Positions 28,715-47,900 of a stretch of DNA of 50,938 nt are shown piece after piece. The position numbers and the translations under genes are program-made. Source of the stretch: a virus. Every line of letters starts with the position of its first letter. The stretch's first letter is position 1. The notes under the pieces were generated by a model. It had not been told where the DNA came from, searched no databases, and saw only the letters and a list, made by a program, of their open reading frames with translations. The DNA lies in IMG/VR virus record IMGVR_UViG_3300046740_000705, positions 1 to 50,938 of that record. The stretch is one strand, 5' to 3'.

Positions 28715-30271
28715 TCAGCCCCACAACGCCAGGATCAGGATGTTGCGCACGCTGTTGTACTCCATCCCGGTGATGATCATCGGGCGCCCGCCGTCATAGC
28801 CGAAGCGCGGGATCACAACCGAAACCGTCTGGCCGAGTTCGAGCGCCTGTAGGGCCTCGGGCGCCAACGGTGTGTCGACCTCGATGAAATCGCGTCGGAC
28901 CTTATAGAGCGCCAGAACCCGATCGGCCTCGGCCTGGGCGTCGGCCTGATTGACCAAGAGCGTGGTGACTTCCTTCTGGACCGCGAGCGGGTTCGGGGTT
29001 TGCACGGTTAGGTCGGTCGCGACCACGGTGCGGTTTTCGATCGCGAAATAGGCCCGCGCGTCATCAGCAACCGACCCGACCAGGCTGGTGCCGCTCATGA
29101 CCGTGTAATTGTGCATCCAGGCCAGCGACACCCGGAACGTCGGCACGCCTTTGTCGGGGTCGTTCGTCGACAAAAAACGGATGTCAACGATGTCGAGGTC
29201 GCCGGTCTGCGCGTCGGTGCCGAGGCCAAACATGCGCAGGGTAGTGACCGGCGTGCTGGGCGCTTCAACCCGGCGCACCCGAAACTTGCCGACCGCGTCG
29301 AACCCGTACCACGCCCCGACCGAGCCGAAGATCAGATCGAGCGGGGCGGCGAAGGTGGACTCGGCATCAATCCAGATCCCGAGCACGGCATGGTTTGCCG
29401 CGTCCAGGGCGACAAAGTCGCCGTCCACGATGTCGCTGACCGGGATGCCGCCGGGCCGGGTAACGAGCGCCTTCGCGACCTGGGCGGCGGTGCTCGATGC
29501 GGCGTTCGGTGCCTGGATGATATCCGCAGTCACGGTGCCGATGGGGCTGCGACCGAGCCGGAAATAGCCGCCGGCTTTCCAGACCCGGTAAAAGCCCGGC
29601 GTCGGTTCGTTGGCTTCCATGTCGGCCCGGCTGGTGTAATCGGCCTGTTGACCCAGCACCGCGCCGGCATCGCGGACCTTGGGCACATCGAGCACCGGGC
29701 CATCGTTGATCTGATACTCAAGCCGGGTGGTGTTGACGCAGGGCGGCGTGACGTTCGAGGGCACGGTGCCGGCGGCGATCGGTAGCGGCTTGCCCTTGAG
29801 GTCGTCCAGCCCGCCGAGCCCGTCCGGCAAGACGTTGTCGCCGGGGTACTTGTTCGCCTGAACCGGTTGCTGCAGGTCTTGCAACCGGTCCTTGAGCTTC
29901 ACCCGGACTTCGTTCAAATCGAACAGGGCCTGCTCGACCCGCCCGACGATAAACGGCACGAAGCTCGCGTAGGGTTCTTCGTCCTCGCCGAGAAGGATGG
30001 TACAGGCCTGCCCGGCCAGCCCGAAATCGCGCAAATTGTCGAGTTCCCCGTCAGGGTTGGCGATGGTCAGGTCGCCCTGCGACACCGCCCCGGCACCGCC
30101 GGTCGTGTTCTTGCCAAAGATGTCGCGGCGAAAGGTCGGCAAGTCTCGGATCCGGTTGTCATACGCACCGGGCGCGCTCGGGTGCAGGTACGGCTGCGAC
30201 GAGAAGCGGAGCGTGGTGAGCGCCGCTGCAGTCGTGTCGTAGGCAGAGATCTCGATCAAGTAGGTCAGCAT
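28715..30271 (-). CDS. Tail hub / tip attachment protein
   Basis: 518 residues, MLTYLIEISAYDTTAAALTT. It occupies the position of the tail hub directly after the tape measure. Beta-rich N-terminal part, a central region around WYGFDAVGKFRVRRVEAPST, and a C-terminal LGQTVSVVIPRFGYDGG segment like those in hub proteins. Its 5' end contains copy D of the repeated late module. Homology is inferred by order and composition. Confidence 0.65.
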   Translation of the reverse strand: MLTYLIEISAYDTTAAALTTLRFSSQPYLHPSAPGAYDNRIRDLPTFRRDIFGKNTTGGAGAVSQGDLTIANPDGELDNLRDFGLAGQACTILLGEDEEPYASFVPFIVGRVEQALFDLNEVRVKLKDRLQDLQQPVQANKYPGDNVLPDGLGGLDDLKGKPLPIAAGTVPSNVTPPCVNTTRLEYQINDGPVLDVPKVRDAGAVLGQQADYTSRADMEANEPTPGFYRVWKAGGYFRLGRSPIGTVTADIIQAPNAASSTAAQVAKALVTRPGGIPVSDIVDGDFVALDAANHAVLGIWIDAESTFAAPLDLIFGSVGAWYGFDAVGKFRVRRVEAPSTPVTTLRMFGLGTDAQTGDLDIVDIRFLSTNDPDKGVPTFRVSLAWMHNYTVMSGTSLVGSVADDARAYFAIENRTVVATDLTVQTPNPLAVQKEVTTLLVNQADAQAEADRVLALYKVRRDFIEVDTPLAPEALQALELGQTVSVVIPRFGYDGGRPMIITGMEYNSVRNILILALWG

Positions 30272-30307
30272 TCCATCTGAAGGGACAGGTGCGCTTCACA
30301 GCGGACC
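30271..30307 (-). promoter_or_regulatory. Late 5' module, copy D
   Basis: On the minus strand: GGTCCGCTGTGAAGCGCACC, then TGTCCCTTCAGATGGA immediately before the ATG of the tail hub gene. It matches copies A, B and C at corresponding positions. Confidence 0.6.
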
Positions 30308-30318
30308 GGGTGGAGGAC

Positions 30319-33300
30319 TTAACCGAAGGCGTTCCGGCGGAGGTTGGTTTCGATGTCCACCAATGCGTCGTGCTGAGCATCGGTCTTCGCGGCCATCCAG
30401 ATGTCGAACTGGATCGTGACCTCAGTCAGCAGGTTGATGTATTCGCGGATGACCCAGGTGTTATCGGCAATCTTGCTGAGGTAGACATTCAGCGTGTAGT
30501 GCATGTCGTTGAGCTTGTTCCAAAGGTTCTGGCTCCAGGCCACCTCGTTGTCGTTCACATTGCCGACCCGGTTGTAGACATTGCTCAACCACCACGTCAC
30601 GTCCCGGCTCATGTCGTAGACCGCATTTCGCGTCGCCCACGGGTCGGGTGCTCCGGCCGCGACCTGGGCGACGATGCTATTCGCGGCGCCGTAGGTGGCG
30701 GCGATGTTGCCGACCGACATCGAGCCGATCGCGCCGATGATGGCGTTGCCGTTGGCGAAGGTCGCGCCGATCTCGTTCGAGGACGAGCCGTAGATTGCCC
30801 CGACGGTGATATTATCGGCGGCGAAGATGCTGTTGGTGATGCTGTTGCTGACCTGCGCCAGCATGCTGACGATGCTGTTCGCCGCCCAGGCCTGATAGTT
30901 GACGTCGGCCTGCCCCCAGTAATTGAGCGTGCCGATATTCGCGTTTCCCCACGCGGCGACGGTGCCGACAGTGGCATTGCCCCACGCGTCAACGGTCATC
31001 GTATTCCACGCGCCGTAGGCCGCGATCTGCTGGTAGATCGCATTACTCCACGCAGCGTTGTCGCCGACGATCCAGCCGCCGACGTTGTAGAGGGCAGTGA
31101 TCACCTGCACGTCGCCGACACTGACCCCCGCAAGCGCCTGGATTGCCGCGATCTGCTCGTTGGTTTTGGCCAGGACCGCATTGGTGCCGGCTTGTGTGGT
31201 CGCCGCGACGCCGGCCGAGGCGGCCTCGGTTCGCGCCCCCAGTTCCGAGGAGGTCGCGTGTGCCGTCCACGCGAGCGCTGCGGTGTTGTCGTTTGCGGTG
31301 GTCCTGACCGCTTCGCTGTTGCGGGTCGCGGTGTCGATGATCGAGGCCGCGGAAGTGTTGTTGCCGGCTACGATCGACTGCGCCGTGGCGTTGGTGGTCG
31401 ACACTACCGCCGCCGCGTTGCGGATATTCTGGTCAACCAGTGCGGCGCTCTGCTGCGCATTGGCCGCGAGGAGCGCGTTGGCGTTGCCCTCCTGCTGGGC
31501 GAGGAGATTCTCGGTGTCCTCTTTCGACCCGGCGATCAGCGTCCTCGAGTTCGCTTCGTTCGAGGCCAGCAGGGCCAGGGTGCCGCCCTTGGATACGTCG
31601 GTGCCGTAGGTGACCGCTTCGGCGGTGCTGTTGGCAGCATTAGCGACCAGCAGGGTCGCGCCCGAAACCAGCTCCGCGCCCGAGGTGGTGGCTCCGGTGA
31701 TCCGGGCTGACCCGTCGATCGCATTGCGCACGATGTCGTTCGACGTGTCGATCGCCACCGAGACGATCCGCGTCGAGCTAGCTCCCGTCTCGGCGACGAT
31801 ATCCCTCGCGGTCGCCCTGGCATTGTCGACGATCGCCTGATTGGTAGCAATGGTCGTGCCGATGATCGACTGCGCGCTCGCCGCCGTCGCTTCCGCCACG
31901 CCGGTCACGGTCGCGGTGCTGGCCTCGGTGATGGCATCGACAATTGCGTTGGTCTGCGTCTGCTGGGCGTCCGGCACCCCCGGCAATGAGGCCAGGGCGG
32001 CCTTGACGTCCTCCCACTCCTGCGCCCCCGGCGCCGCGCTGGCGAAGTAGCCCTGCAGGGCCGACTTCAACGCATCGGCGATGCCGGTGATCCCCTGCAG
32101 CGCATTGACATCGCCGCCCCTGGCCAAGCCCAACTGGGTCTGGAACTGGCTGCGCGCGGCCTGCAGACGGCTGGTCGGGCTGGTGAAATCCTGCCCGGTT
32201 TCCTGGGCGTTGAGGTACTGCCGAATCTGCAGCCCGGCCTGCAGGATGGCGTTGTGCCGCTGGTCCGCGTCGGCCTGCTTTTGGGTCGCGTCGGCCGCGT
32301 CCTTGGATGCCTGGATCAGACCGTAGGCCTCATCGACCCATGTCGCGAAAGCCGGGTTCAGTTCCGCCAGCGTCTTGCGGGCCAGCTCCAGCTGATCGTT
32401 GGTGAGGCCCTGCAGGATCGTCAGCGCCGCCTTGTGCTCTGTCTCCTGGATCACTCCGGACCTGGTATCACCCAGGTCGAGCGAGGCGGCATTGGCCTGG
32501 GCGGCCTTGCGGGCCTTGTCCAGGTCGCGCAGCTGGGCCAAGAACTGCTGCCCGGCGGCGGTATCGAAATCTTGCTGGATCTGGTAGGCCGCAGCCTGGC
32601 GATCCAACTCGCGCGTCAGCGCGGTCGCCGCTTCCGCCGCCGCCTTCGCTGCCCGCGCCAAATCCGGTAGACCGTTGGTCAGATCGCCGAACTTGCTGAT
32701 CACCTCGTCAAGCTGCGGCCCCGACAGGCTTTCGAAGATGGTGTTCAGTTCGGCGTTGAAGGTTGCGCCCAGCTTGTCGTGGATGCTGCGGTCGGCGCCG
32801 ATGGCAGAGGCGTCCCGCGCCATCTGCTCATAGCCGTCAATCACCCCCTGGACATTGGTCAGGAAGTCACGGCCGGTCGCTGCGTTAAAGGCAGTATCGA
32901 CCGCTTTCGAGAAATCGTTGTTGAGGCGTTTGGTGGCTTCCTCGAGCGCCTTGTTCACCGGCTCGACGGCAAGGCCGAATTGTTCTGCCTGTTGCGCCAT
33001 ACCAGCAAAGACAGCGTCGATCTGCTGCTTCACCAGTTCGAACGGACCCGTTTTCGCCGCTGTTTCAACGTCCTTGAAGGCGTTATCTACCGATGCCGCC
33101 AGCTTGTCGTAGGCATCGGCAAAGGCTAACGCGCCTTCGATCTGGGCCGGGTCGCCAATGCTATGGATGACCTTTTGGACGGTATCCGACACCCCGGTCA
33201 GGTTATCTCTCAGCGCGTTCAACCCGGCAGCGATGGCCTCTTCAGCCGATTGGAAGCGGTGCTCCTGCCCCGCAAACGACAGCTTGATGCCGTCGCGGCT

Positions 33301-36300: not shown

Positions 36301-37773
36301 GCTTTTTGTCCCCATGATGTCGAGTGAGACGTTGTATTGCCGGATGCGGGCCTCGACGTCGGCCTGGCGCAGGGCCAGTAAGATGACCGACCCAACCAGC
36401 CCCACCACGGCCCCGGCCGCTAAGGTGGTCGGGGTGATCAGTTTGGTGATTGATTCTCCAAATCCCTTGAGGACCGCGCCGGCACCGCCGCCCTGCGAGA
36501 ACGCTTGCGCTATTTGCCCGCCCTGCTGGGCCAGGATGGTGAAGGGTGACTGCCCGCTCAGTAGACCAGTGGCAACGTCGTTGACCTGAAAGCCCAGGTT
36601 CGTCACGGCGGCATTAAATTGCCCGGTGCCTTTAGTAGCGGCCGCGGTCTTCTTCTCGGCGTCTGTCAGGGCCTTGTTGTGGGTGTCTGTTGCAGTGGCC
36701 GCGCCTCTTATCTTCACAATCTCTGTGGTGTAAGCGTCCTCTGCTTTGTTAAGCGCGGTACGGTGGATATCGACCCCGATCGCGCCTACCTTGAGGGCGC
36801 GGTTGATCTCCTCCTGTGCCGCTTCAAAGCGCTTCTGGGCCGCGAATAACGGGTCGTACTTCGCCTGGAGCTGATCCAGTTCGTTGCCATAGGCTTCAAT
36901 GTCGGCAGTCCGCGTCGCGGCGTCGGAACCGCCTGAGACGCCCGTCGTAGCATTGATCCGTTGCTGGATAGCCGTAGGTGCAGCCCGCTCCGCCGCTCTC
37001 TGAGCGTCGAGGGCGGCTTTCGACGCGTTTATCGCGGTGATCTGTTTTTGGTAGGCCCTGGTTTCTTTGTCGACCGCCTCAGCGTGTTCGTTCACATCGA
37101 TCGCGCCGAGCCTCAAGACCCGGTTTATCTCTGCCAGTTCCTCCTTGTGCGCCTGCTCCGCCGCGAACAGCGGGTTGTACTTGGCCCGCAGAGCGTCCAG
37201 GGATTGGCCGTAGGCCTGGATATCCTCGGCGCGTAGATCAGTCGGCGTCTTCGCCGGCGGCGGTGTCGGCCCAGCTGGCCCGCGGGTGACCCCGGTGACC
37301 CGGTTGATGCGCTCCTGCACCGCAAGGTTATCAACCAGGGCTCGGGTGTTCTCGACGGTCGCGGTGGTGCTTTTATTGAGCAGCGCCAGTCCGTCCTGCA
37401 GCTTCTTATTGACCAGCTCCAGGGCAAACGCCCGCTCGGTCGCGGTGCCGGTTTGCTCCTCCTCCATCCGGGTCAGGCGCTCGACGTCGTTGCGGTACTG
37501 CAACTGCAGCTTCGAGGCCTTGTCCATCCGCGCTATCCACCGCTCCAGCTCATTGGTGGTGGTGCGCTTGGCTTTGGTGACCCGGTCGTCGGTGGCGGCC
37601 GCGGCCACGTTGGAGGCCGCGGCTTCCTTGTTCGCGGCGGCGTTCTGTTGCGCCACCCCGGTCTGCTTCTCCATCTCAGCCGACAGCCGATTGATCGCAG
37701 ACTGCAGCTTGCCCGCGGCGTCTTCGCCTTGGACCTGCAACCTGGCAATAAAGGTGTCGACTAAGTCGGCCAC
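30319..37773 (-). CDS. Tape measure protein with M15 peptidase domain and 11-residue repeats
   Basis: 2484 residues from a GTG at 37773. The N-terminus has two copies of a helical unit (AKYNPLFAAEQAHKEELAEI and AKYDPLFAAQKRFEAAQEEI), a tape-measure domain (FQVNDVATGLLSGQSPFTIL) and a hydrophobic helix. Residues about 738-831 form an M15 (VanY-like) peptidase: SGFRTYEQQLALYNADI, then SIHEKGMAADLT and PWHIEMM, the zinc and catalytic motifs. A Gly-rich membrane-like stretch follows in the middle. Residues about 1990-2380 run in 11-residue repeats. At about 0.15 nm per residue the tail would be near 370 nm. Confidence 0.9.
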   Translation of the reverse strand: MADLVDTFIARLQVQGEDAAGKLQSAINRLSAEMEKQTGVAQQNAAANKEAAASNVAAAATDDRVTKAKRTTTNELERWIARMDKASKLQLQYRNDVERLTRMEEEQTGTATERAFALELVNKKLQDGLALLNKSTTATVENTRALVDNLAVQERINRVTGVTRGPAGPTPPPAKTPTDLRAEDIQAYGQSLDALRAKYNPLFAAEQAHKEELAEINRVLRLGAIDVNEHAEAVDKETRAYQKQITAINASKAALDAQRAAERAAPTAIQQRINATTGVSGGSDAATRTADIEAYGNELDQLQAKYDPLFAAQKRFEAAQEEINRALKVGAIGVDIHRTALNKAEDAYTTEIVKIRGAATATDTHNKALTDAEKKTAAATKGTGQFNAAVTNLGFQVNDVATGLLSGQSPFTILAQQGGQIAQAFSQGGGAGAVLKGFGESITKLITPTTLAAGAVVGLVGSVILLALRQADVEARIRQYNVSLDIMGTKSEQTAEGLEAVTRSLRDQGVEAAKAAQAINALAQTPGISPAGIGGSTGLAQLALNISGSRGTDLVAQATALGKAVSGTATDLERFNEELGVKYTDAENKAISASKLARDEQKQHGIEYQALQRTYAEANAKNKSDFQKTIDDLKKTWNEFLDEMGPPALAIIRDFFKEFNQFIKNTKHEIELLGQAYDWIKSKLPQASDPQGTGWQDAAKAQAAGARGGTDLSMPHGSLTGLKPEFAEQLQKMIADAASQGINLGISSGFRTYEQQLALYNADIAKHGGMASGMVAAPGTSIHEKGMAADLTRDPAALAWAAANAAKYGAYFPMNDPNKHPFEPWHIEMMGSRGAGSGAPSASIGLPAVPTTAADPRADQAAKGKIILDDQAARNAILADSFGKVGREAVAADARAAALTATLTMQATQAQKDAYVQNEVALALQKHDKANAVLNETERIRVAGVQATTAAYLGEGGEVAGLKAAAEAAAVLEQRAGRTTTAQMLLTASAVEAAEAGAKNVPVLGLQIAASQRLVTATEKGTAAEHEQVLANQVVTATHDALAKAVASGNPALIAQAEAITKSTSELIKRNDVLQQTYQLEQQNNQRTNQIEVLKLQAGLQFQTSEEMQRQVSLLQAKQDLEARGLTTADAIYQKTLANVDALGQQNIALAESQRAAGAINDAIKGVATTIDTTLTDSLAGAFSGQKVKDWGSTVKSTINDITKQLISGLFIKPIIGTALSAAGFGKVGADFGSIGGTFSALSSVVGGGGGGLFGGGGSSTPTEFVQKNAKGEVVGTLTSAASTVKSGGGLLGELGLGGSGSEGIFGTGGSLSGVGDFFSGGLGGIFAHAPTGADIAAGVGPVTSAPGSIFGSTTLGGFAGGVGLGFGAGSIANMLAGGNKTTGTIGSGVGALAGTAIGSLVGMPFLGGLIGGAGGGLLGGMFGGNKKPDAASGGVLNLGTGQITNVQSGGNAENDATASRIGTVLSAALTRALAIPGAKLPGGAVAIQAGSRDGIKLSFAGQEHRFQSAEEAIAAGLNALRDNLTGVSDTVQKVIHSIGDPAQIEGALAFADAYDKLAASVDNAFKDVETAAKTGPFELVKQQIDAVFAGMAQQAEQFGLAVEPVNKALEEATKRLNNDFSKAVDTAFNAATGRDFLTNVQGVIDGYEQMARDASAIGADRSIHDKLGATFNAELNTIFESLSGPQLDEVISKFGDLTNGLPDLARAAKAAAEAATALTRELDRQAAAYQIQQDFDTAAGQQFLAQLRDLDKARKAAQANAASLDLGDTRSGVIQETEHKAALTILQGLTNDQLELARKTLAELNPAFATWVDEAYGLIQASKDAADATQKQADADQRHNAILQAGLQIRQYLNAQETGQDFTSPTSRLQAARSQFQTQLGLARGGDVNALQGITGIADALKSALQGYFASAAPGAQEWEDVKAALASLPGVPDAQQTQTNAIVDAITEASTATVTGVAEATAASAQSIIGTTIATNQAIVDNARATARDIVAETGASSTRIVSVAIDTSNDIVRNAIDGSARITGATTSGAELVSGATLLVANAANSTAEAVTYGTDVSKGGTLALLASNEANSRTLIAGSKEDTENLLAQQEGNANALLAANAQQSAALVDQNIRNAAAVVSTTNATAQSIVAGNNTSAASIIDTATRNSEAVRTTANDNTAALAWTAHATSSELGARTEAASAGVAATTQAGTNAVLAKTNEQIAAIQALAGVSVGDVQVITALYNVGGWIVGDNAAWSNAIYQQIAAYGAWNTMTVDAWGNATVGTVAAWGNANIGTLNYWGQADVNYQAWAANSIVSMLAQVSNSITNSIFAADNITVGAIYGSSSNEIGATFANGNAIIGAIGSMSVGNIAATYGAANSIVAQVAAGAPDPWATRNAVYDMSRDVTWWLSNVYNRVGNVNDNEVAWSQNLWNKLNDMHYTLNVYLSKIADNTWVIREYINLLTEVTIQFDIWMAAKTDAQHDALVDIETNLRRNAFG

Positions 37774-37785
37774 AAAGCCCTCATG

Positions 37786-38142
37786 TCAGCGGCGCCGCGC
37801 CGCGGATGGTGGTGGGGAGACGGCCCGGCGGGAGAAGGCGCCGCCGATCGTCGGTGGATGGGATGGCAGGGCCTGCTGTCGCTGGGTTTCCGAATTGCTC
37901 TTCTCGCTGAGCACCGAAGCCCGCAGCATCCCCAGCTGCACTAGGGTGCGGGCCTCCCACGGCTCGATCGTCCCGACATCCATGATGACCTGCCAGGTCC
38001 GCAACGCCTCCCAGGTAAGGACCGGCGGGGCGAAACCGCTGGGCGACAGCCCCAGGCTGATTTCCTGGAACCAGGCCCACAGGTAATCGAGGACATCGGG
38101 AAATTCCGGGGCGTTGGCGTCGATCACCGTCGGCATTCGCAC
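37786..38142 (-). CDS. Tail assembly chaperone, T part of a -1 frameshift pair
   Basis: As an independent frame it reads 118 residues (MPTVIDANAPEFPDVLDYLW from ATG 38136). The same frame stays open upstream to the slippery site at 38313-38307, so it is most likely made as a fusion with the upstream G protein, continuing YAGLVADLLEWAEAEFRSSR. The full fusion would be about 308 residues. G/GT pairs wrap the tape measure during tail assembly. Confidence 0.8.
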   Translation of the reverse strand: MRMPTVIDANAPEFPDVLDYLWAWFQEISLGLSPSGFAPPVLTWEALRTWQVIMDVGTIEPWEARTLVQLGMLRASVLSEKSNSETQRQQALPSHPPTIGGAFSRRAVSPPPSAARRR

Positions 38143-38237
38143 CGGCTGTGCCCGCCGATTGGCAGGCCGCAGCGCCGCGGGGATTTTCGCCCACTGCGCG
38201 GCGCCGGATTCCTCGTGCTCGCGCTCGGTCGAGCCGT

Positions 38238-38711
38238 CTACCGTTTTGCGGGAGCTTCTAAACTCGGCTTCTGCCCATTCGAGGAGATCTGCAACGAGGC
38301 CGGCGTAAAATTTCCGCGGTCGACACAGAATTCGTCGACCTGGTCGCGTATCCAGCGTACCCCATCGTAGATACGGCGGGCGTTTTCCGAGTTGAAGGGC
38401 AGCTCAATCGGGAACCCGTCTAGGTCCAACAGGAACCAATTTGCCGTCAACGCGACCAGTAGATCGGTGCCCTCCGCTTCGAGTTCCTCAGGGGTGATGC
38501 GGACCCGGTTCCTGGTGTTGAGACGCCGCCGCTGAGTTTCGCGGTCGTGCCGCCGTTTGATTTCGGAGTCGGCCGAATAGAGGTCGATCCAGGCCTCTTT
38601 GCCAGTGGCGTCGCGCAGCGGCTGCAGGGTCTGGTAGTGCAACAGGGTCATCCGGGCGGGTTTTTCGACCGCAAGTGAAAGGCGCGCAAGGGCGCTATCA
38701 ACATCAGCCAT
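38238..38711 (-). CDS. Tail assembly chaperone, G part
   Basis: 157 residues, MADVDSALARLSLAVEKPAR. Helical with a conserved WIDLYSADS segment. It lies between tail tube and tape measure, the place of gpG. GGAG five bases before the ATG is supplied by copy C of the repeated late module. About one in several ribosomes would shift into the T frame at codon 135; the ratio cannot be read from sequence. Confidence 0.8.
   Translation of the reverse strand: MADVDSALARLSLAVEKPARMTLLHYQTLQPLRDATGKEAWIDLYSADSEIKRRHDRETQRRRLNTRNRVRITPEELEAEGTDLLVALTANWFLLDLDGFPIELPFNSENARRIYDGVRWIRDQVDEFCVDRGNFTPASLQISSNGQKPSLEAPAKR
38307..38313 (-). promoter_or_regulatory. Slippery heptamer for -1 frameshifting
   Basis: A AAT TTT on the minus strand, in register with the G frame (codons GGA AAT TTT ACG). 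This is a canonical X XXY YYZ heptamer. The -1 frame after it is open for 173 codons and reads as coding sequence. Confidence 0.8.
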
Positions 38712-38715
38712 AAAA

Positions 38716-38753
38716 GCTCCATCTCAGGGAAATGGCGCGCCTCGCGGCGGGCC
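38716..38753 (-). promoter_or_regulatory. Late 5' module, copy C
   Basis: Minus strand: GGCCCGCCGCGAGGCGCGCC, then ATTTCCCTGAGATGGAGC, ending five bases before the ATG of the G gene. It follows directly after the terminator of the tail tube gene. Confidence 0.65.
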
Positions 38754-38764
38754 AAGTGGCGGGT

Positions 38765-38802
38765 AAAAGAGGGGCGCGCCACCCGCCAGCGACGCGCCCC
38801 TC
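38765..38802 (-). terminator. Intrinsic terminator after the tail tube gene
   Basis: GAGGGGCGCG and CGCGCCCCTC form a perfect 10-bp stem (38793-38802 with 38769-38778) and a 14-base loop; on the minus strand TTTT follows at 38768-38765. Confidence 0.8.
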
Positions 38803-38860
38803 GGCAGCGCTACCGTCCGCCTGCGCGGACGTCGATCCCGTGGCGGCGGGATCTGGTGGG

Positions 38861-40123
38861 TTAGACCGCCGCAGTGTCGGAGAAAGCGATCGTGGTCTGC
38901 GGCACGCCTGGCGCCGAGCCGATGTATTTGAGCGCGGTGAACGGGATGGTCAGGGTCTGGCTGGCCAACCCCTGCACCGCGACATCGGCATCCGAAAACT
39001 TGACCCGCGGCAGGTAGATTGAAGTGGCGGGGCTACCGGGCGCGTTGGTGGTCGTGAGGAACGCCAGGATGTCCACCTCATCCTCGTCGAGGAAGTTGCG
39101 GATCAAGTCGGCGTCCTCGAGCATGGCGGTCATCTGGCCCGTCACCGCGGCCGTGCCGAGGAACACCTCAGGCACGAAGTCCTGGCCCACGACCGCGTCC
39201 GAGGCCGGGGTCAGGTCCATGCTGATGTTCAACCCGGTGACGACCCCGACGACCGAGCCCGCCACCCGCAGCATGCCATTGACCGCGGCGAAAATGCCGG
39301 TAGTGGTTTCTGGGTCTGGTGTGGTGAAGAACGGGGCGTTGGTGGGCGTCGTGGAATCGTAGATCTCCATGTCCCGGCCCATCATGGGAAATTCCACGGT
39401 GGCCAGGCCCGAGGCGGGCAAGGTCAAGGTGAAGCCGCCGATCCTGCATTCCGTGAATAGCCGCGAGATGCCGATGTCCTCGTGGAACGTCTCGAGGGCG
39501 AACTTGCGGCTGACGAACCCCGTCGAGGGGATGATCAGATCGGCCCCGCTAGTGTTGAGCGTGAAGGCGAGTTCCGCGGCCATGGTCACCGGAGCCGGGA
39601 ACACGGTCACGGTTGAGTGGGTCACCCCACCAAAGGCGACGGCAATAAAATTGGTGCCGTTGTTGACCGTGCCAGGACCGGTCAGCCCGGTAAGGTGGAA
39701 GACGCTGCCGACCCGCAGCCCCAGCGCCACCGGGTCGCCGCTACCGAAGGTGAGCGTCGACGTTGCGGCGTCACCCGTGACACTGGTCAATGCCGTTGCG
39801 GTGAGCGACAGGGGTGCGCTCTTGGTGCCGCGGGTCGAGGCCTCGAAGAAGTCGAAGTAGGTGCCCGGCGAGAACTCGCCAGAAATCGACCCGGTCACCC
39901 GGCGCGTACCGTGCCGAAAGTCCACGGTTTGGCGGTCAGATCGGATTTCCGTCGCCGCATACGTATCTTTAGCGAGCTTTAGCGAGCTGCTGACCCGGCG
40001 CAGTACTTGCGCACCACTGGGACCGGGATCAGTGGAAGACACCGGCTGGCTGTTGGTCGCCATTGCGCCAGTTGCATACGCCTTGTAGCTGACTCGTGCG
40101 CTTACGCCCTCTGCGAGAGACAT
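38861..40123 (-). CDS. Major tail tube protein
   Basis: 420 residues, MSLAEGVSARVSYKAYATGA. Beta-rich with an inserted Ig-like or decoration region (about 120-180, LTATALTSVTGDAATSTLTF) and a C-terminal part ending IPFTALKYIGSAPG. Position between tail terminator and chaperones, a strong own leader (copy B) and a terminator after it all fit the abundant tail tube. The related family in alphaproteobacterial phages is of similar length. Confidence 0.8.
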   Translation of the reverse strand: MSLAEGVSARVSYKAYATGAMATNSQPVSSTDPGPSGAQVLRRVSSSLKLAKDTYAATEIRSDRQTVDFRHGTRRVTGSISGEFSPGTYFDFFEASTRGTKSAPLSLTATALTSVTGDAATSTLTFGSGDPVALGLRVGSVFHLTGLTGPGTVNNGTNFIAVAFGGVTHSTVTVFPAPVTMAAELAFTLNTSGADLIIPSTGFVSRKFALETFHEDIGISRLFTECRIGGFTLTLPASGLATVEFPMMGRDMEIYDSTTPTNAPFFTTPDPETTTGIFAAVNGMLRVAGSVVGVVTGLNISMDLTPASDAVVGQDFVPEVFLGTAAVTGQMTAMLEDADLIRNFLDEDEVDILAFLTTTNAPGSPATSIYLPRVKFSDADVAVQGLASQTLTIPFTALKYIGSAPGVPQTTIAFSDTAAV

Positions 40124-40129
40124 AGTTGG

Positions 40130-40166
40130 GCTCCATCGATGGGATTGGCGCGTCTCACGACGGGCC
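40130..40166 (-). promoter_or_regulatory. Late 5' module, copy B
   Basis: Minus strand: GGCCCGTCGTGAGACGCGCC, then AATCCCATCGATGGAGC, ending seven bases before the tail tube ATG. GGAG inside it is the Shine-Dalgarno. CCATCGATGG is a perfect palindrome shared with copy A. Confidence 0.7.
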
Positions 40167-40227
40167 GGGCGCCTTGCCCAAGGGCGGTTTGGCTAACCTC
40201 GCGCGGGCTTCACGCGAGGGATTGGGT

Positions 40228-40689
40228 TCAGCCGATTTGGTCGAAAAACAACTCCACCTCGACGGCGGCCCACCAGTAGTTGGTGACCTCTGAGGGCAGC
40301 CCTGGCGGCTTTAGTGCGGCCCCATCACCGCCGGGGAAGACGGTGGAGGCAAAGCAACTGACCTTGTCGTCCCGGTAGCTCCGATAGAGCGCGGCAGCCG
40401 TCTCGGCGATATCGGTGGCGTGGGTGACGCCCCAGCCTTTCGGGATGAAGACGAAGATGTCGAGCCGCGCCGGGTTGCGGTACCGGTTCTGGCCGCGTCC
40501 GCCGCCAAAGGCGACCATCTCACCCGGCTCGGTATCGAATTCGGTAAGGAGGAACGGCGCCGGCGTGTCGGGCAATGCCACCGCACCCAAGGAGTCCTCG
40601 TCCTCGTTTTGCCACCGCAGCGGTGGCAGGGAGGGTTCCGCCTCGAGCAGCGCCCGCAGGGCGCGGTATGCTTCGGACGTCGTCGTCAT
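40228..40689 (-). CDS. Tail terminator protein
   Basis: 153 residues, MTTTSEAYRALRALLEAEPS. Helix first, then a strand-rich core (PFLLTEFDTEPG, LDIFVFIPKGWGV) and a closing YWWAAVEVELFF. Length, order (after the gp10-like gene, before the tail tube) and fold pattern fit the ring protein that stops tail growth. Coupled by ATGA. Confidence 0.7.
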   Translation of the reverse strand: MTTTSEAYRALRALLEAEPSLPPLRWQNEDEDSLGAVALPDTPAPFLLTEFDTEPGEMVAFGGGRGQNRYRNPARLDIFVFIPKGWGVTHATDIAETAAALYRSYRDDKVSCFASTVFPGGDGAALKPPGLPSEVTNYWWAAVEVELFFDQIG

Positions 40690-41348
40690 AGGTTATCGAA
40701 GAAGATCGCTGGCGCTCGCACTGGGTTGCCGATTTCCGGCCGGCGCTTGCGCAGCTTACCCATGCCGATCGAGTAATGGCTCGGAAGCTTGCCTTTGATG
40801 ATGTACGCCTGCGGCATGGTCACGTAGCCGAAGGTCAGTTTGACGGCGTTGCGGTAGCGCTCGCCGAATTGCCGGCTGACCCGTTCGTAGATCCGGTTCG
40901 GCTTGCTGACCAGGAAGTCGCGGCCGGAGGTTGTCTTGCCGACTTCGAGTCGCCGCGCATACACCAGCGGGTTGGCGATCATGATCTCTTGGCCCCGGCG
41001 GATCGGGGTGTTGAGCGGCACCGGGCGGCCGTCCAGGTAGAGCTGGTGGCCCTTCTTGTACCGGCCGCTGTCGACCGGCGAGGCGTCCTGCAGCGCCTTT
41101 AGCACGAGCCGGATGACCTCGAGGTCGTACCGGTATTTGTAGACGATCAGCCGCTGCGCTTGTTCGACCGGCCGTCCCTTAGTATCGCCGAACCCCTCCC
41201 ATTTGGGCATGTAGCCCGACCGGCGGAATTCGTTTTGCAGGATAGAGTTGTGCTCGGCTTGGGCGGCCTTGACGAACCGCCGGCGAGCCTCCTCGGTCGC
41301 TCGCGGCACGAAGAACGGCAGTTCGCGGCGGATGGCGTTCAGTGCCAC
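40686..41348 (-). CDS. HK97 gp10-like neck / tail completion protein
   Basis: 220 residues from GTG 41348. ALQDASPVDSGRYKKGHQLY is the typical P-V-D-T/S-G-x-Y/L motif of HK97 gp10-like proteins, and NPLVYARRLEVGKTTSG matches their Y-A-x-x-x-E-x-G motif. These proteins join head and tail. The N-terminal helix is longer than usual. Confidence 0.8.
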   Translation of the reverse strand: MALNAIRRELPFFVPRATEEARRRFVKAAQAEHNSILQNEFRRSGYMPKWEGFGDTKGRPVEQAQRLIVYKYRYDLEVIRLVLKALQDASPVDSGRYKKGHQLYLDGRPVPLNTPIRRGQEIMIANPLVYARRLEVGKTTSGRDFLVSKPNRIYERVSRQFGERYRNAVKLTFGYVTMPQAYIIKGKLPSHYSIGMGKLRKRRPEIGNPVRAPAIFFDNL

Positions 41349-41351
41349 GGT

Positions 41352-41705
41352 TCAGCCCTTCGCGTGCACCACGTAGGCGATCAAGTCGGGACCGACCGCC
41401 CGCGTGGCATTATCCGGGAAATTAATCGCCAGTTCGCGGGTCCCGAAGATCAGCTTGTCGCCCGTCGTGATCGGCAGGGTAAAGCCACCCGCCACCAGGT
41501 CTTCGACCAGGATCACCGCCAGGAAGTCGAAGGTCATGACATCGCCGATCAGAGCGCCTGCGGCCGCTCCCCGCACCCGTGCGCGACAGGGGGTGTCGGC
41601 AAATGTCCGGTTCGGACCCGCCGGGCCGGTGAAGCGACGGATCGCCACCTGGTGCGTCAGGTTGCGGCGATAGGTCGACCGCGCCTGCTCTGCGGTGATC
41701 GTCAT
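41352..41705 (-). CDS. Head closure / head-tail joining protein
   Basis: 117 residues, MTITAEQARSTYRRNLTHQV. The start at 41705 overlaps the upstream stop. A small beta-barrel pattern (VMTFDFLAVILVEDLVAGGF, GDKLIFGTRELAINF) and location between the adaptor and gp10-like genes fit a head-closure or stopper protein. Confidence 0.65.
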   Translation of the reverse strand: MTITAEQARSTYRRNLTHQVAIRRFTGPAGPNRTFADTPCRARVRGAAAGALIGDVMTFDFLAVILVEDLVAGGFTLPITTGDKLIFGTRELAINFPDNATRAVGPDLIAYVVHAKG

Positions 41706-42355
41706 AGGAACCACAGCCGATAGGATTGCAGCCAGAAGCAGATTTCGGGCGGCGGCCGGCTGTCGCTGTAGCTGCTGCCGCTCGAGGCACTGTCGTTCTG
41801 GTACACAACCGAAATGACGTCGGGGATCGTCTCGCTGCGCAGTGCCGGGTCGCGGCCTTTGGCCATCCAGCGCGTGTTGAGCCACTGCAAGGCCCCGGCC
41901 TTAACATCCGCCGGTATCGGCTCGAACCCGCCCGTGTAGTCGAACAGCACCAAATTGCCGCCCCAGGCCGCGATCATGTTGGTTTGCAGCCGGTAGATGG
42001 CGCCGTTCTCGGCGTCGACCTCGTATTGATCAGCCCCGAGGACAACCCCGTCTTCGGTTACCACCAGCGTGTCGGTATCGATCGGCGGTTGCCGGACCCG
42101 CAGCGGTTGGCCAGGGTTCAGCCAGCTGGAGAGCTGTCGACCTTGATCTTGGTAGACCTGCTGCGGGAAGATCCGATTGCAGTAATTGTTGATGGCAGCG
42201 CTGATCGCGTTGATCTGGGCGGTTAGAGCGACGTCGCTGCTAGTGTCGGCCGGATCGATGCCCAAGGCCGCCTTGACTTCTTCCAAGGTCACCAGGGCCA
42301 TGTCGGTGGCCGGCGTGACGACCCGCGTGATCCGATAATTGGGGTTGGTCGCCAT
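41702..42355 (-). CDS. Head-tail connector (gp6-like adaptor)
   Basis: 217 residues. LVTLEEVKAALGIDPADTSS, then AISAAINNYCNRIFPQQ is the opening of gp6/adaptor-type connectors. The middle is strand-rich and PADVKAGALQWLNTRWMAKG is the usual closing helix. Its ATG overlaps the upstream TAA. Confidence 0.8.
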   Translation of the reverse strand: MATNPNYRITRVVTPATDMALVTLEEVKAALGIDPADTSSDVALTAQINAISAAINNYCNRIFPQQVYQDQGRQLSSWLNPGQPLRVRQPPIDTDTLVVTEDGVVLGADQYEVDAENGAIYRLQTNMIAAWGGNLVLFDYTGGFEPIPADVKAGALQWLNTRWMAKGRDPALRSETIPDVISVVYQNDSASSGSSYSDSRPPPEICFWLQSYRLWFL

Positions 42356-43434
42356 TAGGCGCGCTCAAGGTGGTACTGCTCGAACAACTGCCGCAGGTCG
42401 AGCGGTGGCCCGAGGCTGCCATCCGACATGATCGGCAGGGCGCGAAAATCGTCCGTGGTGGCCCAGTCGACGATCGAGAGGGTCGCCGGCCCCGGCGGGC
42501 CGCGCTCGCCCTTTTCGCCGGCCTTGCCGCGGCTGCCGCGGACGGCCGCCATCGCCCACCCCGCACCCGGAATCGCGCCGGGGTCATCTTCCTTGGCGCG
42601 CCACTCGGAGCCGTTGAAGGTCACGATATCGAATTTCCGGTAGAGCTGATCCGCCCGGTATAGACCGCAGACCTCACCGACATATGGCGCGTCACCCGGT
42701 GGCCCCGGCGGGCCGGGGGGACCAACATCCCCTGGTTCGCCGGGTGGGCCAGTAATGGCCTCCCCTGGGGCACCCCGTTCCCCAGGTTCACCGGGCGGCC
42801 CTGGTGGCGCGGGAGGAATTAACGCCACCGCGGCCTCGATCAGTCGGGCAATCACAGCGTCGTCGGGTGGCGGGCCCGGCGGTCCGGTAATGCTGTCACC
42901 GGGAGGTCCCGGTGGGCCGGGCGGACCGGGCTCCGCCGGCGGCATCAGGGAGGGCAGCAGTCTCAGCACCGCATCCGCGGCGATCCGGTCAATAACGGCG
43001 TTATCGGGCGTCGGTCCTGGGGGCCCTGGCGGGCCTTCGATAGCTTCCCCTGGCGGCCCCGGCGGGCCCGGCTCCGGCGCCGGCAATTGCGCCATGGCAT
43101 AGTCGAGAAACTGCAGCAAGGTTGCCGCGTCGGGCGCCGGTCCGGGTGGGCCTGGCGGCCCCTCGATGCTGTCGCCGGGCGGTCCTGGCGGACCGACGAC
43201 GCTGTCGCCGGGCGGCCCCGGTGGGCCCGGTGGGCCGTTCTCCAGGGCGGCCAGCCGGGTATTGATCAGGCGTTCGTAGTACAGCTGGATTTCGGCGTGC
43301 TTGGCCCGATACTCCGCCCGCATTTCAGCGACGGCGGACGTATACGCACGTTCCAGATCGCGCTCGATGCGAGCGACGATCAAGCCAAGCTCTTCTGCTG
43401 CTGCTATCTCAAGCGGCGAAACGGTGGCGGTCAT
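42355..43434 (-). CDS. Collagen-like protein with carbohydrate-binding-like module
   Basis: 359 residues, [20 protein letters not shown]. An N-terminal coiled coil is followed by six to eight blocks of GPPGPPG triplets interrupted by helical spacers ([16 protein letters not shown]). Near the end [20 protein letters not shown] and [16 protein letters not shown] resemble ChiC-type carbohydrate-binding modules. It is encoded between portal and connector, an unusual place, and could be a capsid fibre. It overlaps the portal 3' end by 26 bases. Confidence 0.8.
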
Positions 43435-44797
43435 AGCTCGATCGGATCGTGGAGCGGAAAGCGGCCGTGCCGCCGTCGGCCGGGGCCGGGGGCGGCGCGT
43501 CGGGGGCCGGGGGCGCCGGGGTATTCGGTGGCGCTTTGTCCCAGGCACTAAGCGGGACGACCTGCTGCTGCACGCGGGGTTCGTCGCCGAACTTAACGGC
43601 CGAGTACTCTTCGCGGGCGCGGGCCTCGTTGGGGCTGAAGATGCCACCTTGGACCCCTCTGACGAGGCCCTCGATCCTGTCCTTAAAATTGGCGCGCAAC
43701 AGCGCCTCGAGGTCGAGTTCGAGGTAGTCATCAGGCCAGCCGGCGAGGGCGAAGAGCCGGCCGAAACCATCTTCGATATGGTTGGCGGAAAAGCCCAAAC
43801 CGGTGCTGACCCAGAATTCCATATGGCTCTGCGTGGCGCCCTGCGGGGCCGCACCGTCCATCAGCGACAGGAGGGGCAATGGCACCCGATACGCGGTGGC
43901 GATGCGCTGGTCAGATATCCGCAGCACCTCTGCCAGTTGCGCGTCGCGGCTGGTGACGGCCGACGCAACCCACTTGAGGCCCTGCGACAGAACCGGTGTC
44001 CCGCCGGCATTGACGCCTTGGGTCTGCTTGTTCCACTGGGCGCGGATTTGCTCGGCGGCCTCTTCGTTGAATTCCTGATCGCCGTGGATGACGCCGCTCG
44101 GTCGCCCCTGGTTCTTCGCGTACGCCAGAGCCTGCCCGATCAACTCCCGCGACACCGCCTCCTCGAGCAAGGCCGACTCCAACGGCGGTACGCCGATTAG
44201 CGGGTTGCGCTTGTCCGGTAGCCGGATATGCAGGACATCGCGTGCCGGCACTGCGTTGAGCGCGGACGGATTGCCGGCGAACAGTCGCTCGACGATCTGA
44301 TTGCCACCGAGCGTGTAGAATAGCTCACCGCTCTGGGCGACCCGCGGCCAACTGCGGCGCGGATCCATCAGGTGAATTTCGGATATCTCGAAGCGGGCAT
44401 TGCGCAGCGCCAGGCCAAAGGCCTCGCCCTCGCCATAGAGACAGTCGGTCAGGTAGAGGAAGAAGTCGGAGGGGGATTGGTAGGTGTTGGGCTTGCGCAG
44501 GATGCGCGACAGCGCCGAGGTCGACACCCGGACGCGGCCGCCCCTCCCGTCGGATTGCCAGTGGGTGCCTGGGCACATGGCGATCGTCTGCGCATAGGCG
44601 GCGCGGCAGGCGTAGACGACGGCAGACCCGCCGTAAGGGAGCGGGTCGTAGCCGTGCTGCCAATAATTGATCGGCCAGCTGGTCGGGATCAGGCCGCCAC
44701 CCAGGGCCAGCTGGTAGGCCGACTGTTTGGCGACCGGACGGAAGACGCGATTAACCGCGCCGACCGCCCGCCGGACCAGAGAGGTTGATGCCGGCAC
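43409..44797 (-). CDS. Portal protein (HK97 family)
   Basis: 462 residues from GTG 44797. [20 protein letters not shown], then [33 protein letters not shown], and [14 protein letters not shown] are HK97-type portal motifs. The dodecameric portal forms the DNA channel. It lies downstream of the capsid gene, the reverse of the usual order. The C-terminus is Pro/Ala-rich and may be unstructured. Confidence 0.9.
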
Positions 44798-44803
44798 CGG
44801 GGG

Positions 44804-45367
44804 TTACGACCGGCCCCGGCGCGCCCCGATGGGGTTGATCGTAATGGCGTTCGATGCCGGCGCCGCGGTTGTACCAAGCGTGTTGGTGGCGCTTACGATG
44901 CAGGTAATGCTCTTCCCGACATCTTCCGCCTCGACAATGTAGGTATCCCCGCCAGTGTCAGCCTTGACGTTTTCTCCGTCGGCTTGCCACTGGTAGGCGT
45001 AGTTCGCCACGTCTTGCTGCATGCCGCTCCAATTGCCCTTGGTGCAGGTCAATGTCTCGCCCACCGTGCCGCTGCCTTGAAGGTGGGGCACATCTTTGTT
45101 TTCTGGCGCCCCTGGCTGGGGCAGTGCCGGGCCCCCATCAACATGCGGTTCCGCTCTCTTCAGCAGTACGTTTTGGGCGCGGGTCGACGGCATCTCCGGG
45201 ACATCCGGATTGGCCTTATCGTCGACGTGCATTAGCCCGTGACGCATCAGATCTAGTTCTTCTTGGGTTGGCACCGGCACGCTTAGGGCCGTTACCCTTA
45301 GGGTCTGGTCCGTCAATTGTTGCCGCGCCTCTTGTTCGGCCCGGTATTCTGCCTCCGTCATCGCCAT
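44804..45367 (-). CDS. Ig-like head-associated protein
   Basis: 187 residues, MAMTEAEYRAEQEARQQLTD. A helical N-terminus is followed by an Ig-like domain at about 90-175: GTVGETLTCTKGNWSG, then YAYQWQADGENVKA and SITCIVSATNTLGTTAA. Such domains decorate phage capsids and may help weak attachment to surfaces. It follows the capsid gene after a terminator. GGGAG precedes the start; ATG 45361 is an alternative. Confidence 0.7.
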   Translation of the reverse strand: MAMTEAEYRAEQEARQQLTDQTLRVTALSVPVPTQEELDLMRHGLMHVDDKANPDVPEMPSTRAQNVLLKRAEPHVDGGPALPQPGAPENKDVPHLQGSGTVGETLTCTKGNWSGMQQDVANYAYQWQADGENVKADTGGDTYIVEAEDVGKSITCIVSATNTLGTTAAPASNAITINPIGARRGRS

Positions 45368-45386
45368 CGCCCTCTCCCTTTGTAAC

Positions 45387-45416
45387 AAGCCCGCCGAGGG
45401 TTTCCTCAGCGGGCTT
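45387..45416 (-). terminator. Terminator hairpin after the capsid gene
   Basis: AAGCCCGC (45387-45394) and GCGGGCTT (45409-45416) form an 8-bp stem with inner GAGG/CCTC pairing. On the minus strand a short T-containing stretch (TTGTTA) follows, so termination is probably partial, allowing less expression of downstream genes. Confidence 0.65.
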
Positions 45417-45444
45417 GCGCCAGGTGTATCGTCGCTTCAAATCA

Positions 45445-47439
45445 TCACCAGGTTACGGCTTGCGTCCAAGCGATGACGCCAGTGCGGCGCATGCCCCAGT
45501 TCATCGGCAAGATCATGCGCAGTGCCAGGCTATCGGTCTGGAACATTGACCGAACCGGCGCTGCCACGACCGGCGGTGTGCCGGCAGTGCCGATCTGCAG
45601 CGGGGTGGTGTCCTCGAAGTGCAATGTCGCCTGGTCGGAAACATCAAACCTGGGGTCGTCGCCGGTCACCGACATGAAATCGGCGGCGTCGAGCAGGATC
45701 AGCATCCCCGCCGGCACCGTCGAGGAGACGATCACCGGATAGCCCTGCAACGTCTGGCCGTTGATTTCAGCCTTGAAGGGGAAATCCCCACCCGCGTTTT
45801 GGGTCAAGCTGATGGCAACCGCCTGCACCGGGTTCATGATCCACACTGGCACCCGCAGTGAATTCGCGGCCGCCAGTACCCCGATCAGGGCTTTGATGTC
45901 GCCAACCAAGGCGTTGAACCCGCCGCCGGCGGTCGCCGCGGTGACGCTCACACCGTTGCGCAACCCAGGCGGGCGGATGCCTGACGCCGGATTGGCATCG
46001 ATCAGGATGGTGTCGACCGCGATCGACGTATCCTCCTGGATCAATTCCCGGATGATCTGCTCCGCTTGCGGGGTGCTGTGTTCGGCGATCTCCCTGGTGT
46101 AGGAGACGATGACGGCCATCTTTTTGAGGCCGAGGGTGACCGCCACGAACGCTGCTTGCCGCACCGGGATTGGCGCGCCTTCCGCAACGAACGACCCTGC
46201 CACTTGCGGCGACAATTGCCGGGTCGGCATCGAGATCTGGGCATAGCGGCCCAAGGTCGCGCGGAAGCCCCTCGACGACAGCGGACCATAGATACCGCCC
46301 GGCAACAGCGCGGCGAAATACTCGCCGTACTGGGTTTGGGCGAGTTCCGCGGCCCAGCCGACGGTGGTGGTGGTGGCCGGGGCGGTCGCGGCGCGGATGA
46401 ACCAGTCGTGCACGCCCTTGGTCTGCTCGAAGTCGCCATATTGACCGTAGCGCTCCGTCATCACCTCTGCCGGTGACCTCCGGGTGACATGCGCGATAGC
46501 CATGCAGACGCAGTGGCGGATCCACAGATAGCCGGGCTCTTCCTCCTTGCGCTTGGGGTGAGCCCACGTCGGCTTGGACGGCTGGCTGCGGGTCGCCGGC
46601 AGACCACCGCCGGGTGGGAACACTGTGGTCCGCCCGGCCGGCACTTCGACCGCCTGACTGTCATTCCCCAGGGCCCGTTCGGCGCGCACCAAGAGGGTCA
46701 GGTTTTCCTTAACCTCTTCGATACGCTCGGTAAGCTCACGCTGCTTAGTTTTGTCGTCGCCTTCCATGACGCTGACAAATTGTTCGCCCAACGACACTAG
46801 TTCGCTCTGGGCGACCTCAATCTTTTCGGAGAGCAACATTGGTTTCGACCTTAGGATGAGATCCTTTCCGGCTGGCTCGCCATGAAGCCCGCGACGCAAC
46901 AGCAGCGGTCGATCGCCATCGGCAGGCTCGCCAAAGATCAATCGCTGCGCTTCGCGGGGGATGCCTAGTTCTGCTGCCTTGCGTAGGGCATTGGCGTTGG
47001 CCGGTACGGTGACCAGCGAACACTCGACCAGCTCCTGCTCGAGGAAGCGGTAGCCGCCGACCTCAGAGTCCGGGAGCGGCTCATATTTCTTCGGGTGGAA
47101 GCCGACCGAGACGGCCCGCAGCATGCCGGCCTTGACCGCCGTCACGATGTGGAGCAGCTCCGGCGTCACCGCCTCCATCAGGTCGAGGGTGCCGACCATC
47201 TGGCCTTTTTGGATTGAAACGTCGCGCCAATTGCCGACGATGAACCTGGAGTTGTGCGCCCACAGCGCGACCGGGTTCTTATAGAAGGCCTCGAGATCCC
47301 ACCCGTCGGGCTCGATGACGTCGCCCATGCGGTCGACGCTGCCGTCACTCATGACGAAGGTCAGCGGGTCGCCGCTAGGCGACGGGGCCGCGACACTCTT
47401 ACGGATCGGCCCTTTACCGATCCTGCGGATCAGGTCCAC
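45445..47439 (-). CDS. Prohead protease fused to HK97 major capsid protein
   Basis: 664 residues from GTG 47439, preferred over ATG 47451 because GGAG sits six bases upstream. The N-terminal 190 residues are an S78 prohead protease: LWAHNS has the catalytic His, and MLRAVSVGFHP the Ser. A delta-like coiled coil (EKIEVAQSELVSLGEQF) links to an HK97 capsid domain (GAPIPVRQAAFVAVTLGLKK, later PVIVSSTVPAGMLILLDAAD). Fusion implies protease and coat are made 1:1 and separated by cleavage. Confidence 0.9.
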   Translation of the reverse strand: MDLIRRIGKGPIRKSVAAPSPSGDPLTFVMSDGSVDRMGDVIEPDGWDLEAFYKNPVALWAHNSRFIVGNWRDVSIQKGQMVGTLDLMEAVTPELLHIVTAVKAGMLRAVSVGFHPKKYEPLPDSEVGGYRFLEQELVECSLVTVPANANALRKAAELGIPREAQRLIFGEPADGDRPLLLRRGLHGEPAGKDLILRSKPMLLSEKIEVAQSELVSLGEQFVSVMEGDDKTKQRELTERIEEVKENLTLLVRAERALGNDSQAVEVPAGRTTVFPPGGGLPATRSQPSKPTWAHPKRKEEEPGYLWIRHCVCMAIAHVTRRSPAEVMTERYGQYGDFEQTKGVHDWFIRAATAPATTTTVGWAAELAQTQYGEYFAALLPGGIYGPLSSRGFRATLGRYAQISMPTRQLSPQVAGSFVAEGAPIPVRQAAFVAVTLGLKKMAVIVSYTREIAEHSTPQAEQIIRELIQEDTSIAVDTILIDANPASGIRPPGLRNGVSVTAATAGGGFNALVGDIKALIGVLAAANSLRVPVWIMNPVQAVAISLTQNAGGDFPFKAEINGQTLQGYPVIVSSTVPAGMLILLDAADFMSVTGDDPRFDVSDQATLHFEDTTPLQIGTAGTPPVVAAPVRSMFQTDSLALRMILPMNWGMRRTGVIAWTQAVTW

Positions 47440-47444
47440 GGCAG

Positions 47445-47480
47445 GCTCCATCGATGGGATACGCGCGCTTCACAGCGGGC
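47445..47480 (-). promoter_or_regulatory. Late 5' module, copy A
   Basis: Minus strand: GCCCGCTGTGAAGCGCGC, then GTATCCCATCGATGGAGC. GGAG in it is the Shine-Dalgarno for the capsid GTG at 47439. Confidence 0.7.
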
Positions 47481-47496
47481 GAGGGGAGAGGATCGC

Positions 47497-47888: not shown

Positions 47889-47900
47889 TTACTCGCCTCC

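Follow-up and report, generated by a model that had tools for sequence, protein, structure and literature searches.

A predicted structured RNA element precedes virion genes in unrelated phage lineages

The DNA analysed here, referred to as the window, comprises the 50,938 bases of IMG/VR record IMGVR_UViG_3300046740_000705 (positions 1-50,938), a viral sequence whose late genes are encoded on the minus strand. The initial annotation had placed a repeated module in front of four of these late genes, encoding capsid, tail tube, tail assembly chaperone and tail hub proteins. The four modules and their coordinates were confirmed by direct reading and by a pattern search: the combination of a hairpin (hereafter P1), TCCC and GATGGA, the latter containing the Shine-Dalgarno (SD) sequence, occurs exactly four times in the 50,938-base record, always on the minus strand, with 0 matches on the plus strand and 0 when the pattern was read backwards. 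The 5' starts of P1 lie at 47477 (copy A), 40162 (copy B), 38749 (copy C) and 30303 (copy D), and in all four copies P1 is followed by TCCC, GATGGA and the start codon, in that order. The parts of each copy, with the features next to them, are as follows.

47462-47481, minus strand: P1 of copy A, CGCT (47477-47474), loop GTGA and AGCG (to 47466), with a C.C mismatch (47478 x 47465) and outer stem CGC/GCG.
47447-47459, minus strand: UCCC (47459-47456) and Shine-Dalgarno GATGGA (47452-47447) of copy A.
47439, minus strand: probable GTG start of the capsid/protease gene behind copy A (phrog_617, major head protein).
40170-40193, minus strand: a second hairpin, P0, upstream of copy B, with GCC (40193-40191), stem CGCC (40186-40183), loop CTTGGGCAA (40182-40174) and 3' stem GGCG (40173-40170).
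40147-40166, minus strand: P1 of copy B, CGTC-GTGA-GACG (40162-40151), with a C.C mismatch (40163 x 40150) and outer stem GGC/GCC.
40132-40144, minus strand: UCCC (40144-40141) and GATGGA (40137-40132) of copy B.
40123, minus strand: ATG start of the tail tube gene behind copy B (phrog_290, tail protein).
38757-38800, minus strand: region 5' of copy C, with a terminator-like hairpin GGGGCGCG/CGCGCCCC and TCTTTT.
38734-38753, minus strand: P1 of copy C, CGCC-GCGA-GGCG (38749-38738), with a C.C mismatch (38750 x 38737) and outer stem GGC/GCC.
38718-38730, minus strand: UCCC (38730-38727) and GATGGA (38723-38718) of copy C.
38711, minus strand: ATG start of the tail assembly chaperone gene behind copy C (phrog_313).
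30288-30307, minus strand: P1 of copy D, CGCT-GTGA-AGCG (30303-30292), with a C.C mismatch (30304 x 30291) and outer stem GGT/ACC.
30272-30285, minus strand: UCCC (30285-30282) and GATGGA (30277-30272) of copy D.
30271 or 30259, minus strand: ATG or TTG start of the gene behind copy D (phrog_8917, 1.4e-110), initially read as tail hub.

Each window copy has the form 5'-CGNN-GNGA-NNCG-3' with a perfectly complementary 4-bp stem. The shared block CCGC..GCGC described in the initial annotation is thus present in all four copies, and it represents an RNA hairpin and not merely a common sequence: the inner stems show compensatory changes (CGCT/AGCG twice, CGTC/GACG, CGCC/GGCG), the C.C mismatch and a 3-bp outer stem are found in every copy, and single-sequence folding yields the same hairpin in all of them. 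The palindrome CCATCGATGG, also reported for copies A and B, is there as well; it consists of TCCC, the spacer ATC and GATGGA, and it is considered incidental because the spacer between TCCC and GATGGA varies freely in relatives. With regard to the statement that the modules end at the start codon region, the capsid reading frame probably begins at GTG 47439, 7 nt past GATGGA, this start being judged more probable than the ATG inside GATGGA. The start of the putative hub gene, whose PHROG is annotated as function unknown, is uncertain, since ATG 30271 abuts GATGGA directly and TTG 30259 is in frame. A P1-like hairpin, GGTCCGCTGTGAGGCGCGC, at 15892-15909 (minus strand) has neither TCCC nor SD and probably arose by chance.

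The conservation of the module was analysed by scanning IMG/VR with a pattern in which the outer CG/CG pairs, the loop G[TC]GA, TCCC and GATGGA were fixed and the inner stem was left free. The element was found in at least 118 stretches, and the inner stem was complementary in 114 of the 123 viral matches listed, although pairing had not been demanded. The same pattern in bacterial contigs, where mostly chance matches are expected, gave a paired inner stem in 22/120 cases, and a reversed-loop control in which the entire collection was scanned gave 11 matches in all. In an alignment of 77 nonredundant copies both variable inner pairs were formed throughout (77/77), the double-sided changes numbering 39 and 20; the complete pairing is due partly to selection, since copies had been retained for a paired inner stem (the unselected figure is the 114/123 mentioned above). 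The outer stem pairs, on which no selection had been made, also covary. The covariation score of this alignment was 0.493 as compared with a shuffle mean of 0.150, none of 500 shuffles reached either the number of paired cells or the covariation score, the signal was lost when the partner was shifted by 1-3 columns, and RNAalifold recovered the P1 hairpin unaided. A further count of 221 hairpins vs 2 reversed-loop ones in the fetched loci was not used as evidence, as those loci had been fetched by the motif itself. Chance or SD-only similarity is ruled out by the pattern, the reversed-loop control, the stem pairing that had not been asked for and the shuffles, and conservation beyond the SD, in the form of a covarying stem and a GNGA loop, is seen in other phages. 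Judged by these comparisons of sequences, the modules are a structured RNA element and not just a shared sequence.

Details of P1 are also maintained. Exactly one 1x1 mismatch lies below the stem in 87/89 copies, at one of two adjacent positions, being C.C at the first position below the stem and mostly A.C or C.C at the second. When the loop was left free, the 124 loops recovered were GNGA (60), GNGA plus one base (about 48) and GGAY (15), with 1-2 others. With everything 3' of the hairpin left free, 67 nonredundant hairpins were obtained, mostly followed by (U)CCC and usually in the order (U)CCC, GATGGA or GAAGGA, and start codon; the remainder includes chance matches in coding DNA. Within one phage the hairpins differ in stem or loop in 14 of 16 multi-copy records, and recognition is therefore likely to be of their shape and not of the stem sequence. 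Where records were checked to the base, every copy of a given record was on one and the same strand.

The distance between the hairpin and the translation start is narrowly set. The end of P1 and the end of GATGGA are separated by 17-20 nt in 83/89 cases, the distance from GATGGA to the start is 7-11 nt in 99/118, and the start codon is ATG in 105/118. In several copies (e.g. loci L459, L464, L454, L443, L416 and L419) an extra hairpin sits exactly between CCC and GA[U/A]GGA; an inserted hairpin is short in space and long in sequence, which speaks for the placement of P1, CCC and SD in space being important in the RNA. P1-type hairpins in tandem were observed in loci L162, L117, L054, L163, L030 and L517, some of them with a second SD-like GATGGA in between. 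The suggestion that the module is a leader is supported by the way in which hairpin, UCCC and SD are tied to the start codon, and on this arrangement the element probably has a role at the level of translation. An mRNA processing or stability element, in which the hairpin would label or shield a new 5' end and thereby let the virion mRNA last longer than neighbouring ones, would fit with copies standing at gene boundaries, and 5' hairpins near an SD can stabilise mRNA. We regard such a function as improbable, since it leaves the invariant GNGA loop, UCCC and the fixed SD distance unexplained, and no conserved cleavage-like or promoter-like sequence was found upstream. As for other candidate structures, pairing of UCCC with the GNGA loop as a pseudoknot was disfavoured because the loop N is rarely G; for a CsrA-type site, ANGGA is fitted by GAUGGA, yet the loop is not GGA.

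The second hairpin, P0, has the arrangement stem, C-[U/C]-U-N-GGC-AA, stem, and lies just 5' of P1 in 42/192 nonredundant copies (about 22%), including window copy B. Under selection on the loop only, P0 stem pairs 1-3 are Watson-Crick in 95-98% of copies, the maximum of 1000 shuffles being 65-79%, and P0 was not found in shuffled upstream sequences. A GCC stands a few bases 5' of the P0 stem in 40/42 copies, as compared with 34% in a background window. It is plausible that P0 forms a small pseudoknot in which GCC pairs with the loop GGC, a pair that cannot show covariation because it is invariant. When P0 plus GCC was searched alone in IMG/VR, 37 copies were found together with P1 and a start codon, and about 30 stood before an SD and start without a recognised P1, a few of them with imperfect P1-like hairpins. 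In 23 clear P0-only cases the genes behind again include major head and tail proteins. One P0 is found in an isolate, Rhodobacter phage RcapNL (from R. capsulatus SB1003), before the major tail protein gene; it lies at 3500-3540 of this sequence (L732), between that gene and a DUF3168 gene. The occurrence of P0 before virion genes with or without P1 indicates that the two are separable units. Other hairpins were observed at the P0 position, namely stems of about 8 bp with loops ending in AATG (L033, L515, L513, L007) and GCGG-GANNANGG-CCGC hairpins (L402, L033, L101).

The genes behind the element were classified through 102 downstream proteins. Head scaffolding protein was the commonest PHROG match (23), and major head proteins were represented by several overlapping families (phrog_10, 19; phrog_617, 17; phrog_267, 11; phrog_283, 10; phrog_212, 3), along with major and minor tail proteins, tail tube and tail sheath. 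The modules bearing the element span podo-, sipho- and myovirus types, and a covariance-model search of 40 longer records gave 1-5 copies in each. Hence the motif does occur in relatives before the same kind of genes as in the window, and from these assignments the genes that follow it are virion genes of unrelated phage lineages.

Among isolates, P1 was found directly 5' of the major capsid gene of Pseudanabaena phage Pan3 (ON968454, 4441-4483), and no other convincing P1 match was obtained from INPHARED with the BLAST queries used. The capsid-related isolates RHph_X2_26, phiKM1 and SOVA965, and phage SI01, have no convincing copy; the lack of a copy in capsid-related isolates indicates that the element does not track capsid type. 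In bacterial genomes, strict filters left a strong match in 2/385 genomes of the class of a Pseudolabrys metagenome-assembled genome and in 1/369 genomes of the class of Luteimonas saliphila, both counts including the genome on which the set was centred. Of the genomes from the family of an Acetobacteraceae isolate, 8/249 had a match, several of these matches being weak and coding-like. The strong chromosomal matches lie mostly 5' of phage-like structural genes, and bacterial chromosomes appear to be almost free of the element except in prophages. These data do not support the idea that phages borrowed a regulatory element from their hosts: as chromosomal matches are rare and the strong ones are mostly at phage-like genes, the element is most likely phage-borne and belongs to the phages.

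The initial annotation had offered two functions at the level of transcription, a phage late promoter and a target of a NusG-like factor. A late promoter acting as DNA would agree with the repetition of the module before late genes. The freely covarying stem and the invariant asymmetric loop point instead to RNA; upstream of P1 there is no position of notable information apart from P0, no sigma-70-like promoter was found in 37500-48000 of the window, and copies A and D begin only 11-15 nt after the stop codon of the preceding gene. A promoter is thus extremely improbable. Many copies lie 2-60 nt past the upstream stop codon, the larger distances being unreliable; the many copies at just 2-20 nt likewise speak against a promoter.

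Two of the modules had also been said to follow terminators. This is so only for copy C, upstream of which there is a terminator-like hairpin plus T-run (38800-38765) and a weaker terminator-like match at 38784-38772; the hairpins in front of copy B have no T-run, and A and D stand close to the preceding stop codon as mentioned. The loop of the hairpin before copy C, TGGCGGGT (38788-38781, minus strand), is complementary to ACCCGCCA (38764-38757), just before the copy, and this complementarity could possibly form an attenuator or a larger pseudoknot. Terminator-like hairpins are somewhat enriched upstream of the element in general (9/192 vs 3/762 random windows). In locus L021 a terminator stands before the copy and leaves no space for a promoter, which implies either read-through RNA or a promoter overlapping the terminator.

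This enrichment would agree with a function of the element as a nascent-RNA loading site for processive antitermination by a NusG-like or other elongation factor, and the phage itself carries a candidate gene:

50279-50803, minus strand: NusG-like gene (phrog_6386), near the window end and at the start of the late strand.

It lies upstream of an HNH endonuclease gene (49852-50178) and of the terminase genes. The phrog_6386 gene is present in 9/40 element-bearing records, some of which may be fragments, and in 0/8 chance-hit controls. Most element-bearing records are thus without it, and its carriers belong for the most part to the window's own terminase clade, for which reasons the NusG-like factor was rejected as a general partner and cannot serve as the general explanation of the module, though it may have a role in this particular phage. 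In addition, LoaP, a NusG paralog, recognises in the dfn leader a hairpin with a UNCG-type loop (PMC12691694) and not GNGA, and neither the close spacing to SD and start nor one copy per virion gene would be required for antitermination, which we consider quite improbable here.

Another possibility is a translational operator, that is, a phage-encoded RNA-binding protein that recognises the hairpin and so controls several late genes jointly, by repression or by activation. The conserved loop and the conserved mismatch resemble a protein site, the 1-5 copies per record would form a regulon, and known phage operators lie just 5' of the SD (PMC3014915; PMC6483171). Clustering by BLAST and hidden Markov models of 1719 open reading frames (of at least 60 amino acids, many contigs being fragments) from 33 element-bearing records gave no family present in more than 14/33, and the broadest families were terminase, portal and integrase. 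The downstream proteins, moreover, are non-homologous (scaffold, capsid, tail tube and sheath families), which excludes autogenous control by one protein as a general rule. Altogether, a dedicated phage operator protein seems unlikely. Since the records do not show any common phage protein, the partner would likely be the ribosome itself or an RNA-binding protein of the host.

We therefore somewhat favour a structured 5' leader of late mRNA that would act at translation initiation, giving the gene behind it its own strong and independent ribosome entry through the host machinery. We infer that translation initiation is the controlled step. Within a polycistronic late transcript, the folded leader would provide the following gene with strong and independently set ribosome entry; the most economical partner would be one present in every host, namely the 30S subunit at initiation or a cellular RNA-binding protein docking on the hairpin just 5' of the SD, and P0 may be a second docking or stabilising unit. 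By default the effect is more likely activation than a timed release from repression. Three points weigh against this proposal. Folded singly, the window copies have an energy that is ordinary given their base composition (z -0.7 to -1.8). Weak pairing of UCC with GGA of the SD is conceivable and, if it formed, would suggest repression; such sequestration is possible over just 3 bp, and minimum free energy folds show weak, inconsistent pairing. Finally, a small or fast-evolving phage RNA-binding protein may have escaped the clustering, which covered frames of at least 60 amino acids from contigs of which many were fragments.

Structured phage mRNA leaders are a broadly known kind of element. 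T4 RegA and gp43 regulate replication genes, and Mu Com regulates mom. In lambda-type boxB, a small hairpin, the loop can fold as GNRA type with an extra base, like the GNGA-plus-one loops found here; boxB belongs to the nut sites of N antitermination and does not lie beside the SD of virion genes. A hairpin similar to P1, YY-GUGA-RR followed by UCCC, occurs in the helix 35 region of 16S rRNA, a lead only, which may be a common-tetraloop coincidence. Translational control in T4 includes the mRNA operators of gene 32 (a pseudoknot) and gene 43 (a hairpin) and the RegA sites (PMC3014915). The element shares with them a folded RNA just 5' of, or overlapping, a phage ribosome-binding site; the T4 operators are autogenous or replication-gene sites of T4-like phages, whereas here one element precedes many non-homologous virion genes in unrelated phages. 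The Mu mom leader likewise contains a phage RNA site whose occupancy sets translation (PMC6483171), but it is a single target of a known zinc-finger protein, and no such shared protein was found in our records. The LoaP hairpin is also a small 5'-leader hairpin, and a NusG-like gene is present in this phage too; however, that hairpin acts on transcription, occurs once per operon leader and is not spaced to the SD (PMC12691694). The element does not belong to the T4 or Mu type, as autogenous control does not apply to it, its distribution goes beyond a single phage group, and it has no known protein.

No family of Rfam 15 matches the element, the copy A region giving just a chance match (E 8.8), and no published description was found in a full-text search of open-licence papers. 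The element accordingly constitutes a new RNA family within a class that is broadly known, and its spread across lineages is unusual. The sole Rfam family at gathering score in the window is int-alpA RNA (RF02996; 5904-5972, minus strand, 49.1 bits). Elsewhere in the window, GC-rich repeats at 42690-43250, in a 499-amino-acid minus-strand frame with tail-fibre matches, look like a collagen-type Gly-X-Y region, and 20795-22531 (plus strand) encodes a 578-amino-acid protein with a Gp3-like recombination directionality factor domain (PF18897). Considered as a whole, the interpretation given in the initial annotation is partly supported.

The amounts of capsid, scaffold and tail proteins made from long late transcripts are usually ascribed to promoters and to the strength of the SD. 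One structured RNA that is maintained by compensatory changes and stands in front of the major virion genes of unrelated lineages would be a general dosage device missed by annotation. More tentatively, P1, P0 and the optional hairpins might be exchangeable RNA modules shared by unrelated phages as a ribosome-recruiting leader of virion genes, working via the host 30S subunit without a phage protein and being, in principle, a bacterial counterpart of viral internal ribosome entry elements; this wider idea we hold to be possible though doubtful. At least two isolates carry parts of the element (P1 in Pseudanabaena phage Pan3, P0 in Rhodobacter phage RcapNL), its function is testable by simple reporter fusions, and in uncultured phages it flags the genes of major capsid and tail proteins.

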